In this document: one piece after another, positions 5,088 through 10,715 of the stretch | Numbering within the stretch: position 1 is the first letter of the stretch | How the letters are laid out: each line of letters starts with the position of its first letter | NCBI GenBank assembly: GCA_947178445.1 | Contig: CAMWYJ010000031.1 | Location: 1 to 33,120, forward strand | Origin: an uncultured Clostridium sp. | Lineage (GTDB): Bacteria; Bacillota; Clostridia; Lachnospirales; Lachnospiraceae | Length of the DNA: 33,120 nucleotides | Direction of reading: 5' to 3' | Made by a program: the position numbers and the translations under genes | Notes under the pieces: model-generated | The model's database searches: none | Told to the model about the DNA's origin: nothing | The model's input: the letters and a program-made list of their open reading frames with translations, nothing else

Positions 5088-5528
5088 TTATATATTAATC
5101 CACTGGATAAAAGCTGTTTTATCCGTACTGTTATATCCTGCATTTTGGTAAAATTCTAATGTCTTCTGTTCTTTAGAACCTGTAAGCAACATCATTTTAT
5201 AGCAATTTTCTTTTACCGCTATGTCTTTTGCATAATTTAAACATTCCGTTGCATAACCCTTTCCCCGGTAATCTTTATTTGTAACAACATTTTCTATAAA
5301 TGCATACGGTCTCACATTTCTTGTTAAATTAGGAATTATCACGCATACACAGGAAGAAACAATTTTATTGTTTACTATGTTCACTAAAAGGTGGTGGTTT
5401 TCATCCTCCACGATTTGATTCCAGGTAGATATCAAATGTTCTGATTGTTCGGGAATTGATTTTTCATGTAAATACAAATACAATTCCAGCACTTCTGCCA
5501 AGTCTTCTTTTTTCGCTTCTCTAACCAT
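5088..5528 (-). CDS. GNAT-family N-acetyltransferase
   Basis: The 146-residue protein begins MVREAKKEDLAEVLELYLYL and has the acetyl-CoA loop in VVTNKDYRGKGYATECLNYA (about 82-101) and the terminal LEFYQNAGYNS. This is a complete single GNAT domain. GAGGAGG lies 6 nt upstream of the ATG. The nearby GNAT genes (4430-4846 and 5557-6075) are not close copies of it, so they arrived separately rather than by tandem duplication. Substrate is unknown. Confidence 0.9.
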   Translation of the reverse strand: MVREAKKEDLAEVLELYLYLHEKSIPEQSEHLISTWNQIVEDENHHLLVNIVNNKIVSSCVCVIIPNLTRNVRPYAFIENVVTNKDYRGKGYATECLNYAKDIAVKENCYKMMLLTGSKEQKTLEFYQNAGYNSTDKTAFIQWINI

Positions 5529-5556
5529 TCTATAACCTCCTCAAGTTCCCAATTTA

Positions 5557-6075
5557 TTACCTAAGTAATTCCCATTCTGTACGAGTTATGGCATATGCAT
5601 ATGAAATACCATTCTTTTCATCGGAGTATTCTTTTATTTTTTTCATACCATTTGCAATAGCAGTAGAATATGAACCGACATTCGTATATTTCATATAAGA
5701 ATACAGACAATCGTATTCCGTATTCCTAAATGCCCAGTCTCTAACCGCGTTTGCTGCCTCACTTCCAAATCCTTTTCTCCAATACTTCTTATGAATATGA
5801 TAGCCTATTTCCGGAAGATATTCCCCATCAATATTTTGTATTGTAATTCCACAGTCACCTATAAGTTTCCCTGTTTCTTTCAAAACAACAGCCCACAATC
5901 CAAATCCATATTCTTTATAATTTTGAAGATTCCATTCAATCCAGTTCCTCGTACGTTCTTCATCAAAGGGCTTAGGATAGTGTTGCATAGTTTCTGAATC
6001 TGATAGTATCTCATATATGGCTTCAAAATCCTGTAATGTATATTCTCTCAAAATCAATCGCTCTGTTTCAATCAT
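5557..6075 (-). CDS. RimJ/RimL-type GNAT acetyltransferase
   Basis: The 172-residue protein starts MIETERLILREYTLQDFEAI, the standard opening of the RimJ/RimL subgroup, and has YHIHKKYWRKGFGSEAANAV as the acetyl-CoA loop. This subgroup acetylates N-terminal amines of ribosomal proteins or small molecules; the substrate here is unknown. The start is ATG 6075 or the adjoining GTG 6078, with GGAG 8-11 nt upstream; an earlier ATG at 6102 is less supported. It directly follows ribBA (49 bp, no terminator seen), so it is probably transcribed from the riboflavin promoter, in the place where ribH often lies. Confidence 0.88.
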   Translation of the reverse strand: MIETERLILREYTLQDFEAIYEILSDSETMQHYPKPFDEERTRNWIEWNLQNYKEYGFGLWAVVLKETGKLIGDCGITIQNIDGEYLPEIGYHIHKKYWRKGFGSEAANAVRDWAFRNTEYDCLYSYMKYTNVGSYSTAIANGMKKIKEYSDEKNGISYAYAITRTEWELLR

Positions 6076-6124
6076 CACTTTATATTCTCCACAAACCTCC
6101 ATTTGTCTCTAAGTCTGCCCGCAA

Positions 6125-7327
6125 TCATTTATAATTCAGGATATGTCCCATTTTTTCCTGCTTAGTTTTCAGATAAAATGCATCATACTCACCTGGCTCC
6201 ATAACAATGGGAACCCGCTCCACGATATCCAGTCCATAGCCCTTTAACCCATATACCTTAAGTGGATTATTGGTCATTAAACGAAGCTCTTTGATTCCAA
6301 GGTCTACCAAAATCTGCGTTCCAATCGTATAGTCCCTTGCATCCTCCGGAAATCCCAGTTCCAGATTCGCCTCTACGGTATCACGCCCTTTATCCTGAAG
6401 CTCATAGGCGCGGATTTTGTTAATCAGTCCGATTCCCCTTCCCTCCTGGCGCATATAAAGAAGGACACCTCTTCCTTCCTTCGCAATCATTTTCATCGCT
6501 GCATCATACTGCTGTCCACAGTCACACCGGGCAGAGCCTAATGCATCTCCGGTAAGGCATTCGGAATGGACACGGCAAAGAACCGGTTTTCCATCTGTAA
6601 TATCCCCTTTTACAAGGGCAACATGATGCTCTCCGTTTAACTTATTCACATAGCCATGTATCGTAAATTCACCATAGCGGGTAGGCATTTTTGCTTTTGC
6701 CACACACTCTACAAATACCTCATGCTCCTTCCGGTACTGAATCAGATCCTGAATTGTGCCGATTTTCAAGCTATGCTTCTTAGCAAAAGCAATCAAATCT
6801 TCCTTTCTCGCCATCATGCCGTCTTCCTTCATGATTTCACAGCAAAGCCCCACCGGCTTTAACCCCGCAAGCTTCATAAAATCCACTGTTGCTTCGGTAT
6901 GTCCGTCTCTTTCAATGACTCCTCCGGGTCTTGCCTCTAACGGAAACATATGCCCCGGTCTCCTGAAATCCTCCGGCTTTGCGCCGTCTTCCACAAATTT
7001 TCTCGCGGTGATTCCACGCTCATAAGCCGAAATTCCTGTCGTGGTATCCACATGGTCTACTGACACTGAGAATGCAGTACAGTGGTTATCGGTATTAGTA
7101 ATGCACATCTGCGGAAGATTTAAACGGTCCGTATAAGAGGCATCCATTGGCATACAGATTAACCCCCTTGCGTAGCTCGCCATAAAATTCACATTTTCTG
7201 TGGTGGCAAACTGAGCCGCACAGATAACATCTCCCTCATTTTCCCTGTTTTCATCGTCTAAAACGACGATACATTTTCCGGCCTTTAAGTCCTCGACCAG
7301 CTCCAATGTCGTATTAAATTCAGACAT
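6125..7327 (-). CDS. ribBA: Bifunctional DHBP synthase / GTP cyclohydrolase II
   Basis: This 400-residue enzyme carries both entry reactions of riboflavin synthesis. Residues 1-205 are 3,4-dihydroxy-2-butanone 4-phosphate synthase, with [10 protein letters not shown] and the HTEATVD segment. Residues 206-400 are GTP cyclohydrolase II, with the zinc cysteines in [17 protein letters not shown] and the catalytic RQEGRGIGL loop. The usual length is about 400. AGGAGG lies 7 nt upstream of the ATG. It is the last recognised riboflavin gene of the operon, separated from ribE by a 393-bp motif array instead of the usual short gap. Confidence 0.97.
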
Positions 7328-7720
7328 TTTTCTACCTCCTGTATCTTAATGGTATAGTCTATTTTGACTTATCATATTTTTATTATGTTTACATAATCTC
7401 ATTACATATTGTATTTACATAAAATGTCTACATAATAATTTTACATAATATATGAACATAACAACTATACATAATTCATTTACATAATATCGCTTTTGTA
7501 TTATAAGAACAAACACTCTTCGGCAATAAAATCTTTAAACATCTGTATAATTAGTTTTCAATCATAGTTTATACAATCTTCATATTGTTTACATAATTCA
7601 TCCATTTAATTTACATAACATTACACCATTAGTTTACATAACTCATATTTCTTTTACGTAATATCACACTGACAACTTACATAATTTCTCTATCTTATTT
7701 GTATAATATCATGTTTTAGT
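7328..7720. other. Non-coding ribE-ribBA spacer filled by TTTACATAA repeats
   Basis: The 393-bp gap inside the riboflavin operon is very AT-rich and has no usable open frame. It consists largely of copies of the nonamer TTTACATAA (plus-strand sense; TTATGTAAA in the rib transcript). Eight copies are exact (starting at 7388, 7414, 7440, 7479, 7588, 7610, 7633, 7720) and at least four differ by one base (7427, 7466, 7653, 7676). The last copy overlaps the ribE stop codon. No good internal promoter for ribBA was recognised. The ribBA ribosome binding site lies at the left end (about 7335-7340). Confidence 0.9.
7388..7491. repeat. Tandem array of eight 13-bp units
   Basis: Units start at 7388, 7401, 7414, 7427, 7440, 7453, 7466 and 7479, exactly 13 bp apart with no slips. 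Each begins with TTTACATAA or a variant (ATTACATAT, TCTACATAA, TGAACATAA, TATACATAA), followed by four AT-rich bases that vary. The core is kept while the 4-bp linkers drift, which suggests selection on the core or repeated unequal duplication. Confidence 0.9.
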
Positions 7721-7728
7721 TTACATAA
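7542..7728. repeat. Second TTTACATAA block with about 20-26 bp spacing
   Basis: Motif starts are 7542 (TCTGTATAA), 7568 (TTTATACAA), 7588, 7610, 7633, 7653 (TTTACGTAA), 7676 (CTTACATAA), 7698 (TTTGTATAA) and 7720. Distances are 26, 20, 22, 23, 20, 23, 22 and 22 bp, about two DNA turns. The sequence between motifs is unrelated from unit to unit. Confidence 0.75.
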
Positions 7729-8380
7729 AACCATTTTTTGCAAGTAACTCCATTGTTATTTCTCCGGACTCTCCTTCCTCAAGCTTGGAATCGTCAAAAT
7801 GCATCAGCTTATCAATATATTTTCCCACAATATCATTTTCCAGATTTACAATATCTCCTGCTTTTTTCGTAAGCAATGTCGTATGCCCGGCAGTATGCGG
7901 AATCAAAGATACTTTAAAGCATCGGTTCTCCACATAAGCGACAGTCAGAGAAATCCCATCAATGGTAATGGAACCCTTTTCAATAATATATTTTAAAATC
8001 TTTTCCGTTGTCTGAATCGTTACCCATACGGCGGTGTCTTCCTTTACAAAGCTTTCTATCTCACCGGTTCCATCAATATGCCCGCTGACAATGTGTCCAC
8101 CAAATCTCCCATTTGCCGCCATGGCACGCTCCATATTCACCTTACTCCCTTTTGTAAGACTGCCAAGGGAGGAACGCCTGATGGTTTCTGCCATCACATC
8201 TGCCGTAAAAGTTTTTGTATTCATTTCTGTGACCGTCAGACAGACACCGTTGACTGCGATGGAATCCCCAATATGCATATCTTCAAAAATCACATCCCCC
8301 TGCAGGGTGAGACTGGAAGACTTTGCTCCTTTGCTAATAGACACTACCGTTCCGATTTCTTCTATAATTCCTGTAAACAT
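7721..8380 (-). CDS. ribE: Riboflavin synthase alpha subunit
   Basis: The 219-residue enzyme dismutates two 6,7-dimethyl-8-ribityllumazine molecules to riboflavin. It starts MFTGIIEEIGTV, the standard start of the family, at an ATG (8380) with AAGGG 10 nt upstream. It contains two lumazine-binding repeats, each with a GDSIAVNGVCLTV-type or SITIDGISLTVA segment (near residues 33-45 and 130-141), and SGHIDGTGEI between. Length is normal (about 215). An in-frame ATG at 8422 has no family support. The TAA stop lies within the last TTTACATAA motif. Confidence 0.97.
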   Translation of the reverse strand: MFTGIIEEIGTVVSISKGAKSSSLTLQGDVIFEDMHIGDSIAVNGVCLTVTEMNTKTFTADVMAETIRRSSLGSLTKGSKVNMERAMAANGRFGGHIVSGHIDGTGEIESFVKEDTAVWVTIQTTEKILKYIIEKGSITIDGISLTVAYVENRCFKVSLIPHTAGHTTLLTKKAGDIVNLENDIVGKYIDKLMHFDDSKLEEGESGEITMELLAKNGFM

Positions 8381-8466
8381 GTTATCACTTCCCTTCCTCC
8401 ATATCTTCCGATAAAACCTCATGCTGTTTCTGTTTGTTCCTCATCCTCCTGTCTCACATCCCCATT

Positions 8467-8628: not shown

Positions 8629-9156
8629 TCATAAGAATCTTATCATATCTATACACCAGTCCTCATATTTCCCCTTATTTCCCTGTTCGTCAGTATATTC
8701 ATATACACCATCTAAATGTATTTCTCCAACGGTATGATAACCCATTTTTTCGTATAACCGCTTCGCTTTTGGATTATCCCCTGGATTCACATCAAGTCCC
8801 AGGCATAAAATACCTTTTTCCTTACAAATCTCTTCACATGCCAATATTAATTGTGAACCAATCCCATAATTCCTTAAAGGTTCTATAATAAGCAAATCAA
8901 TCATATCTGCACATTTAGCATTATTGGTGTAAGGCATGACATCCTCCTTATTGTCTAAGGACAACAATACATAGCCAACCGCACAGTTATTTATAAATGC
9001 TCCTATATAAACTGCATGTCCATCTCTTTGCTGTTTAAGCCTTTCTGTATGTACAGATACCTCATTTTTCACCAATAATAGATTGTTTAAGTCGTTCTCT
9101 TCGATCTCTCTTATTTGATATGTTATACAATCTATTTTATTTAACTTTGCGGTCAT
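8629..9156 (-). CDS. GNAT acetyltransferase inserted in the riboflavin operon
   Basis: The 175-residue protein has the acetyl-CoA loop in LLIIEPLRNYGIGSQLILAC and the GNAT end NPKAKRLYEKMGYHTVGE. AGGAGG lies 9 nt upstream of the ATG. It sits between ribD (ends 9242) and ribE on the same strand, so it is most likely transcribed with them under the FMN riboswitch. No riboflavin step needs an acetyltransferase of this kind, so either it is a passenger or it uses a flavin-linked substrate. It is not a close copy of the three GNAT proteins at 4430-6075. Confidence 0.9.
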   Translation of the reverse strand: MTAKLNKIDCITYQIREIEENDLNNLLLVKNEVSVHTERLKQQRDGHAVYIGAFINNCAVGYVLLSLDNKEDVMPYTNNAKCADMIDLLIIEPLRNYGIGSQLILACEEICKEKGILCLGLDVNPGDNPKAKRLYEKMGYHTVGEIHLDGVYEYTDEQGNKGKYEDWCIDMIRFL

Positions 9157-9241: not shown

Positions 9242-10372
9242 CTAACTATTGTTTCCTGCACCAGTCACATAACTCAACAGTACGTCCTCTCCAATCTGCT
9301 CTACAGATACCAGCTTACATCCCAAAGCCTCTGTAGCAAGCTCTACCCCCTCACCGCCAACCGGGGTATAAAATCCTGCACCGCCAAAAAACTTTGGTGC
9401 CACATACGCTTCAATACGGTTCACAATCCCTGCCTTAAGTGCTGCATAATTGAGAGTAGAACCACCTTCCAGCAAAATTCCGTCTATCTGCTTTTCTCCA
9501 AGCCTCACCATCAAATCCTGTAAGTCCAGTTGTCCGTTTATTTCTTTTACCGATAAAACCTCCACACCCTCTTTTTCCAGCTCCACCTTCTGCTCATGCC
9601 AGAAACGGTTATACTCTGGGTGTGGCTCTATTGTTGCCAAAATGGTTGGTACTTCCTTTGCCGTTGCCACTACGTTACTGGATAGAGGAATCCGAAGTTT
9701 GGAATCGCAGATTATCCGGATTGGATTTCTGCCTCCTTCTATCCGGCAGGTCAGTCTCGGATCATCATTTAATACTGTCCCGATTCCCACCATAATACCC
9801 TTTAATGCATTTCTCGTCTGCTGGACACGGTTTCTGGATTCTTCGCCGGACACCCACTGCGAATGTCCCGTTCTCGTTGCAATCTTGCCGTCCAAGGTCA
9901 TGGCATATTTCATCACCACATAAGGAGTCTTTGTTGTAATATAGTGGAAAAAGACCGGATTTAGTGCATCACATTCCTCCTTTAAAAATTCTGTCACCAC
10001 TTCAATTCCTGCATTCCGAAGCATCTGAATTCCTTTGCCTGCCACCAGCTCATTGGGATCATTCGAGCCTACATATACCTTAGAAATGCCATGCTCTATA
10101 ATTGCCCCCGTACATGGCGGCTGTTTTCCCTGATGACAGCAGGGTTCCAAGGTTACATACATTTCCGCTCCTATCGCATCCTCTTTCCGCTTTAAATTCT
10201 GAAAAGCATTCCGCTCTGCATGCAAATCACCATATCTCGCATGATAGCCTTCACTGATAATCTGTCCATCCTTTACAATCACCGCACCAACTAATGGGTT
10301 CGGGTTAACCTTTCCAATTCCAAGCCTCGCAAGCTCTATCGCCCGACGCATATATTGTTCACTTTCTGCCAT
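9242..10372 (-). CDS. ribD: Bifunctional pyrimidine deaminase/reductase RibD
   Basis: The 376-residue enzyme carries out the second and third steps of riboflavin synthesis. Residues 1-145 form the deaminase: HAERNAF with the zinc His and catalytic Glu, and EPCCHQGKQPPC with the two zinc Cys. Residues 146-365 form the NADPH-dependent reductase: VVMKYAMTLDGKIATRTGHS, an RNALKGIMVGIGTVLNDDPRL segment and the LLEGGSTLNYA loop. Length is normal. The ATG follows GGTGG by 4 nt. It is the first gene of the operon, downstream of the FMN riboswitch and its terminator. Confidence 0.97.
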   Translation of the reverse strand: MAESEQYMRRAIELARLGIGKVNPNPLVGAVIVKDGQIISEGYHARYGDLHAERNAFQNLKRKEDAIGAEMYVTLEPCCHQGKQPPCTGAIIEHGISKVYVGSNDPNELVAGKGIQMLRNAGIEVVTEFLKEECDALNPVFFHYITTKTPYVVMKYAMTLDGKIATRTGHSQWVSGEESRNRVQQTRNALKGIMVGIGTVLNDDPRLTCRIEGGRNPIRIICDSKLRIPLSSNVVATAKEVPTILATIEPHPEYNRFWHEQKVELEKEGVEVLSVKEINGQLDLQDLMVRLGEKQIDGILLEGGSTLNYAALKAGIVNRIEAYVAPKFFGGAGFYTPVGGEGVELATEALGCKLVSVEQIGEDVLLSYVTGAGNNS

Positions 10373-10505: not shown

Positions 10506-10551
10506 ACTACATTTAAACTCACGGATATCACAATTCAATATCCCTTATCAC

Positions 10552-10699
10552 TCTTCTTCCATCCAGACTATACTGTCGGCACCGGAATCTCACCGGTTCC
10601 TGCCTTACGGCTCGCGGGCTGATGAAGCTTAGAAAATCTCTTGTCATTTCCAGGTCTTCAAATACCGCCGGTGGGGACTTACACCCCGCCCTGAAGATT
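10552..10699 (-). ncRNA. FMN riboswitch (RFN element)
   Basis: The minus strand shows the conserved RFN blocks in order: ATCTTCAGGGCGGGGTG at the 5' end, CCCCACCGGCGGTA, a variable arm, AGCCCGCGAGC, the AACCGGTGAGATTCCGGTGCC stem (longer than typical text allows, see 10575-10597) and GACAGTATAGTCTGGATG at the 3' end. It binds flavin mononucleotide and lowers expression of downstream riboflavin genes. It is placed between a sigma-A promoter and the intrinsic terminator at 10468-10505. Confidence 0.97.
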
Positions 10700-10715
10700 C
10701 ACTTTTCCGTAGGTT

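Follow-up and report, generated by a model that had tools for sequence, protein, structure and literature searches.

A 13-bp tandem array in the riboflavin operon of an uncultured Clostridium species and its possible reading as a row of XerD half-sites

The ribE-ribBA gap and its two arrays

The window, a stretch of 33,120 nucleotides, carries a riboflavin operon on its minus strand. It includes ribD (9242-10372), the riboflavin synthase gene ribE (7721-8422; TIGR00187, 238 bits, cut-off 156.6) and ribBA (6125-7327; NF006803, 601 bits, cut-off 569). An FMN riboswitch, a known means of riboflavin control, lies upstream of the operon on the same strand (10547-10702; RF00050, 102.5 bits). Neither ribH nor a recombinase gene was found among the window genes scanned. 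Three GNAT acetyltransferase genes lie within or adjoining the operon (5088-6102 and 8629-9156). The 393-bp gap between ribE, upstream, and ribBA, downstream, holds two arrays that share one core and are separate from the riboswitch.

The first array (7388-7487, minus strand) consists of eight cores of consensus TTATGTNNA, each followed by four variable bases when read along the minus strand, which is the one that codes for the operon. The plus-strand core starts are 7388, 7401, 7414, 7427, 7440, 7453, 7466 and 7479. On the minus strand, units 1 to 4 read TTATGTAAA with linker TGAA, TTATGTATA with GTTG, TTATGTTCA with TATA and TTATGTAAA with ATTA; units 5 to 8 read TTATGTAGA with CATT, TTATGTAAA with TACA, ATATGTAAT, the unit at 7401, with GAGA, and TTATGTAAA with CATA. 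Compared with TTTACATAA, four cores are exact, two carry one change and two (7401 and 7453) carry two. The original prediction was right that the cores are kept and miscounted them, since six and not five are exact or one base off. It had also described kept cores with varying linkers, and indeed TATGT is present in all eight units and no two of the eight linkers are alike.

The strict 13-bp step was examined by counting in-phase runs of units that agree with the core at 7 or more of its 9 bases, for periods 9 to 40 on both strands. The longest run, eight units, occurs at period 13 on the minus strand; other periods give at most four (at 26, a multiple of 13) and the plus strand at most two. 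In 1000 dinucleotide shuffles of the gap the longest run was three, or five when 6 of 9 matches sufficed for a unit. Over both strands the window has 10 copies of TTATGTAAA, against a mean of 0.9 and a maximum of 5 for 200 anagrams, and the core with at most one mismatch gives 36 matches where 19.6 are expected. The array is therefore confirmed as a real feature, and the predicted strict tandem arrangement of eight cores stands. With cores kept, linkers free and phase strict, it would, to judge from its letters, behave as the array of binding sites that had been proposed.

A second array, missing from the original prediction, repeats the same core on the minus strand at steps of about 22 bp (7544-7728). 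Its plus-strand starts are about 7544, 7566, 7588, 7610, 7633, 7653, 7676, 7698 and 7720, those at 7544, 7566 and 7698 being degenerate and placed by eye. The six better copies, which were measured, follow one another at spacings of 44, 23, 20, 23 and 22 bp, counted from the ribE end, and a similar row with spacings of 22, 20, 24, 22 and 21 is present in a related genome, G014. The copy next to ribE covers the ribE stop codon, where it forms part of a full 11-bp XerD-arm sequence, TTATGTAAACT (7718-7728, minus strand). Six of 24 genomes carry this sequence unchanged at the ribE stop, and one of them is G024, whose gap is without an array. Among rib-gap sites, C[CT] at positions 10-11 is found in 11 of 45 sites out of 13-bp phase and in 3 of 50 in phase (p = 0.018), a comparison that took in degenerate sites and ribE-stop sites.

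Recurrence and constraint in related genomes

A check across related genomes had been suggested, and the array proved to be present in related species and not in one strain only. In 26 genomes of the genus, TTTACATAA-N{2,6}-TTTACATAA gave 17 matches in 11 genomes, with N = 4 in all 17, and pairs with N{0,30} numbered 66 in 19 genomes; since neighbouring pairs of one array share units, the counts of the two scans are not of independent events. Spacings, transcribed by hand, were 13, 26 or 39 for 36 of the 66 pairs. The family sample without the window's own genome yielded 117 pairs, 15 of them at 13 bp, of which 5 belong to one minisatellite, and another 24 at 21-23 bp, again by hand transcription. 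Equal frequency of the motif elsewhere had been named as an objection; reversed patterns and anagrams are in fact rare (2 against 17, 3 against 66, and 0.9 against 10).

The gene ribBA was located in 24 of the 26 genomes, and the 24 rib gaps were compared. Seven hold at least three clear 13-bp units: G023 (11), the window's own genome G000 (8), G014 and G009 (6 each), G003 (4), G012 (3) and G025 (one run of 3 and one of 2). Two clear units are seen in G020 and G007 and weak traces alone in G004, G019 and G022; 12 of the 24 gaps have no 13-bp units. This spacer comparison gave a divided answer: the array is not restricted to a strain, and its unit number, from 0 to 11 between species, is what had been put forward as the mark of a minisatellite, yet the linkers differ and the cores do not.

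Outside the rib gap, arrays of at least three units were found at G000:C20, G002:C3, G003:C11, G005:C45, G007:C67, G009:C223, G011:C65, G024:C2, G024:C18 and G025:C71, that is in 9 of the 26 genomes, G000 included, and two more records (L091 and L092) carry an array. Rib gaps and other loci taken together, an array is present in at least 12 of the 26. The non-rib arrays compared for position (14 rows, eight independent loci) lie between genes, although one runs 13 bases into the end of a gene, and at three of the eight independent loci the array starts at most 10 bases from a stop codon. Across nine independent loci, the rib locus among them, six arrays are oriented with both flanking genes and three against both. 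In three species a short inverted repeat with a GAATGATTC centre stands directly behind the array (L036, L161 and L083).

The genes beside these other arrays encode a MurJ-like flippase and a beta-CASP nuclease, a DNA-alkylation repair protein, an oxidoreductase and a sigma factor, an S1-domain protein, folB-folK and pheA, and a PAP2 protein and a GlgB-like enzyme. Because 9 of the 26 genomes have arrays by unrelated genes, the array is not riboflavin-specific, and the idea of an element belonging to riboflavin operons is not supported. Riboflavin-specific control was rejected on two grounds: flanking genes elsewhere share no common function, and the operon already has its FMN riboswitch. The occurrence of the same arrays by unrelated genes therefore points probably to a landing strip for a chromosome-handling protein rather than to a riboflavin switch.

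A degenerate four-unit pattern search of a collection of genome contigs returned 23 stretches. Eleven have unlike linkers and kept cores (nine Lachnospiraceae, one uncultured Clostridium and one uncultured Clostridiales); the other 12, from Shewanella, Colwellia, Glaciecola, Methanosarcina and others, have mostly identical or near-identical linkers, those of L081 (Acetatifactor) being intermediate between the two groups. A search of open-licence papers found no report of such an array. Orthologous arrays of three species pairs, with units aligned by hand, differ at 2 of 105 sites in the core, taken as TTATGT with base 9, and at 17 of 90 other sites (positions 7-8 and linkers; Fisher p = 5e-5).

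Clusters of TTATGTNAA, some in 13-bp phase and with unlike linkers, are also seen in viral contigs: at 300-496 and 4160-4252 of L313, an IMG/VR contig of 182 kb, and in L314-L316. Four viral stretches, representing two distinct arrays, hold four-unit arrays with unlike linkers. Nothing is drawn from them, because full-arm pairs in viral contigs have no 13-bp peak among the matches listed; Pfam and PHROGs searches of ten viral-contig genes named no function beyond one GP88 match.

The XerD arm of dif and the main rival

Taken over 118 units of 21 arrays, a number in which the same locus from several species and loci split in two are counted, the consensus reads TTATGT A A A Y A T A and leaves positions 7 and 8 free. 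TTATGT is kept at 96-100%, A at position 9 at 96% and a pyrimidine at position 10 at.76; position 7 is A.69, T.15, C.08 and G.08, position 8 is A.69, and the commonest linker end is A-T-A. Thirteen loci had been removed by hand as minisatellites or members of other groups, among which L081 (Acetatifactor, linkers not identical), L085 and L062, the latter two on one contig, belong to the family.

This unit resembles half of a recombination site. In published dif sites (PMC3025954), the XerD ends are ...TATATATTATGTAAACT in B. subtilis, ...TGTATATTATGTTAAAT in E. coli and ...TGCACATTATGTCAAGT in F. alni. Divided into arms and centre as in PMC5357621, the XerD arms with their flanks are TATATA-TTATGTAAACT, TGTATA-TTATGTTAAAT and TGCACA-TTATGTCAAGT, respectively (PMC3025954). 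The array unit matches the Bacillus arm TTATGTAAACT, preceded by ATA, in its nine core bases and in the flanking ATA.

XerD itself scores above the curated cut-off in 22 of the 26 genus genomes. A TRQxFW stretch, which we take to be the DNA-recognition helix of XerD, is conserved in 21 of these 22. E. coli XerD shares it (alignment with PDB 1a0p). The exception, G008 (G008:C17, L144), has TRK for TRQ and is without a TTATGTAAA pair and without a rib array, a single case. Exact 13-bp pairs occur in 10 of the 22 genomes with XerD above the cut-off and in 1 of the 4 without, and the two do not correlate. None of the 26 genus genomes yielded a canonical dif when up to 3 mismatches were allowed, and the search of 297 family genomes gave 3 weak matches. 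A looser pattern has one match in the 26 genomes, in G013, so that a divergent dif may exist. Of 30 sites read with their flanks in this connection, most fall in open reading frames. Within the window a dif profile scores at best 18.2 of 37, at places outside the array.

Isolated arms (TTATGTWAACY) outnumber the reversed control in four genus genomes (44/19, 38/20, 32/22 and 29/2); in three single-contig genomes of other genera they do so hardly or not at all (2/15, 38/35 and 5/32), which speaks against the reading favoured below. Many of the isolated copies fall in open reading frames, and arm-rich contigs were partly chosen for holding pairs. Pairs of TTATGTTAACC 60 bp apart lie in long open frames (G002:C15 38804/38864; G011:C55 30004/30064) and are probably coding repeats that inflate the isolated-arm counts.

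Direct TTATGTAAA pairs are found in another setting as well. Two elements with three tyrosine recombinase genes, presumably RIT-like, are bounded by inverted pairs of the form TTATGTAAA-N8-TTATGTAAA, with a 17-bp step (G017:C54:2231-5719 and G004:C80:413-4018; loci L027, L040, L021 and L033). A similar inverted TTATGTAAA pair is present in G136:C17. TTATGTAAAC[CT] recurs with a step of 36 or 37 bp at G011:C55:63288-63370, G002:C15:27126-27208 (L024 and L032) and G066:C31:16963-17119; in G011 and G002 the sequence between copies is unlike by eye.

The best explanation, which we favour tentatively, is that the array may offer tandem half-sites to a tyrosine recombinase of the XerD type, in the simplest case the XerD of the bacterium itself, acting on the chromosome. 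XerD-type subunits would bind singly and head to tail, not as a XerC/XerD pair, in two packing modes side by side, one loose, with a step of about 22 bp or two helical turns, and one tight, with a step of 13 bp. Once bound, such a row would have its effect on the chromosome, where it might for instance stop or unload a translocating SMC complex or hold DNA, and the arrays would occupy intergenic gaps without controlling their neighbours as a regulon. Both the binding of XerD and any effect on SMC or DNA are what we infer from these comparisons. This reading is favoured because the core, the free position 7 and the ATA match dif, XerD is conserved and the flanking genes are unrelated, and also because no canonical dif was found and direct TTATGTAAA pairs end the three-recombinase elements. 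It is weakened because C[CT] is not kept, position 8 is free, the arrays do not track XerD and the terminus contigs described below are without an array.

Its main rival, a serious possibility to which we give somewhat less credence, is that another DNA-binding protein recognizes TTATGTNNA tandemly at 13 bp, as in an operator or nucleoid-protein array, and that the likeness to the XerD arm arose by chance. The constraint on core sites fits any binding protein, and six loci oriented with their genes and three against are what DNA sites can display; positions 8 and 10-11 are unlike the XerD arm, and array presence is independent of XerD presence. Against chance, the match to dif takes in all nine bases of the core, the ATA beside it and the freedom of position 7, and we know of no other protein with this site.

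Terminus, remaining readings and known systems

A second recombinase, closest to XerS, scores 219 and 223 bits in two species, below the cut-off of 267. Near its gene lies a conserved imperfect inverted repeat resembling difSL, TTCGCAAAACCC[AG][AG]GTTTAACGAAA. Gene and repeat are found at G000:C8:12752 (L443), G024:C1:170621, G025:C16:21482 and G007:C54:74325. In G024, G007 and G025 the repeat immediately precedes the gene; in G000, where the gene is inverted, the repeat stands 96 bases past the 3' end of the gene. GC skew turns from plus to minus nearby, at about 170 kb of G024:C1 and at 10-15 kb of G000:C8. We take the skew flip with the XerS-like gene and the difSL-like site as the terminus and the site of dimer resolution, and XerD may accordingly be free of dimer resolution in these bacteria.

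No 13-bp pair was found in 228 of the 235 kb of the G024 terminus contig, nor in all 90 kb of that of G000, which extends only 12.7 kb on one side of the flip. Each contig has one full arm, 57 kb (G024) and 42 kb (G000) from the flip. Shorter stretches by the XerS-like gene in G001, G002, G007 and G025 hold no 13-bp pair, and one full arm was found, in G007. The arm-rich contigs were considered as the terminus and rejected, because the skew does not flip on any of them and does so on other contigs, which are without arrays.

These contigs bear on the reading of the arrays as XerD sites that would unload SMC at the replication terminus, by analogy with B. subtilis. Citing statements in three papers (PMC12322038, PMC10945525 and PMC8357415) present XerD as a sequence-specific SMC unloader near the B. 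subtilis terminus, with XDS sites. Since the skew-flip contigs of G024 and G000 are without a 13-bp pair, such a terminus role is very unlikely here, and the arrays are not filed as XDS.

An element acting in transcription or as RNA, whether through promoter boxes on the antisense strand or through AUG-UAA repeated along the operon mRNA, is comparably improbable. TTTACA and CATAAT on one strand and AUGUAA on the other do lie within the cores, and six of nine loci are co-oriented with their genes. However, matches to a sigma-70 promoter (-35/-10, 16-18 bp apart) number 4 against a mean of 5.3 in shuffles, not above chance, and the antisense boxes of the original prediction find no backing there. 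The opposition of the array to both neighbours at three of nine loci is unexpected for a sense-RNA signal and makes a DNA-level role likelier than an RNA-level one.

Least probable of all is a neutral minisatellite generated by slippage, which would suit the unit number of 0 to 11 and has parallels in the 13-bp minisatellites of TTATGTNNA in Shewanella, Colwellia and others, but whose copies should be alike including the linker, as they are or nearly are in most of those, when the eight linkers here are unlike and changes spare the core (2 of 105) relative to other sites (17 of 90).

The XerD reading can be taken further, in a form that we regard as rather doubtful. XerD is known as a recombinase. 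A XerS-like recombinase acting at a difSL-like site might have taken over dimer resolution, XerD being kept as a pure DNA-binding factor with landing strips of its own. These would be dense 13-bp and 22-bp arrays of half-sites, scattered over the arms of the chromosome and distant from the terminus, at which XerD would stop or unload SMC or otherwise shape the chromosome. XerD with half-site arrays, where no canonical dif or terminus arrays were found, would then be a separation by nature of the two roles of XerD. If true, this lineage would give a direct test of XerD action without recombination, and it would offer binding-site arrays with fast turnover in number and a fixed core and 13-bp step.

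Among known systems, the XerD half of dif shares with the array the TTATGTnAA core, the free seventh base and ATA or ACA in front; unlike dif, a single 28-bp site, the array at 7388-7487 consists of many direct repeats only, without the XerC arm, 6-bp centre and inverted XerD arm of the dif architecture. The last two arm bases, C[CT], are kept in 3 of 50 13-bp units. At position 8 the three published dif sites do not vary, and the array does (A.69). The ends of the three-recombinase elements (G004:C80 and G017:C54) are similar in their direct TTATGTAAA pairs beside tyrosine recombinase genes and differ by a 17-bp spacing, one or two pairs per end and inverted orientation. The 13-bp minisatellites of unrelated bacteria have the same period and a similar unit, but their linkers are mostly identical and those of the array divergent. 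LytTR proteins recognize 9-bp repeats of the type [TA][AC][CA]GTTN[AG][TG] placed 21-22 bp apart; the spacing of the second array, about 22 bp, fits such direct repeats, 13 bp does not, and a comparison by eye shows two or more mismatches between the core and this consensus. The single-recombinase difSL/XerS system seemingly exists in the same genomes, but its site shares no arm with the array. XDS sites, finally, are XerD half-sites, and the array unit agrees with them in nine core bases and ATA, minus the last two arm bases. Like XDS, which are proposed to act without recombination, the array would consist of XerD sites; it differs from XDS in its tight 13-bp and 22-bp tandem arrangement and in its absence from the terminus contigs of two genomes.
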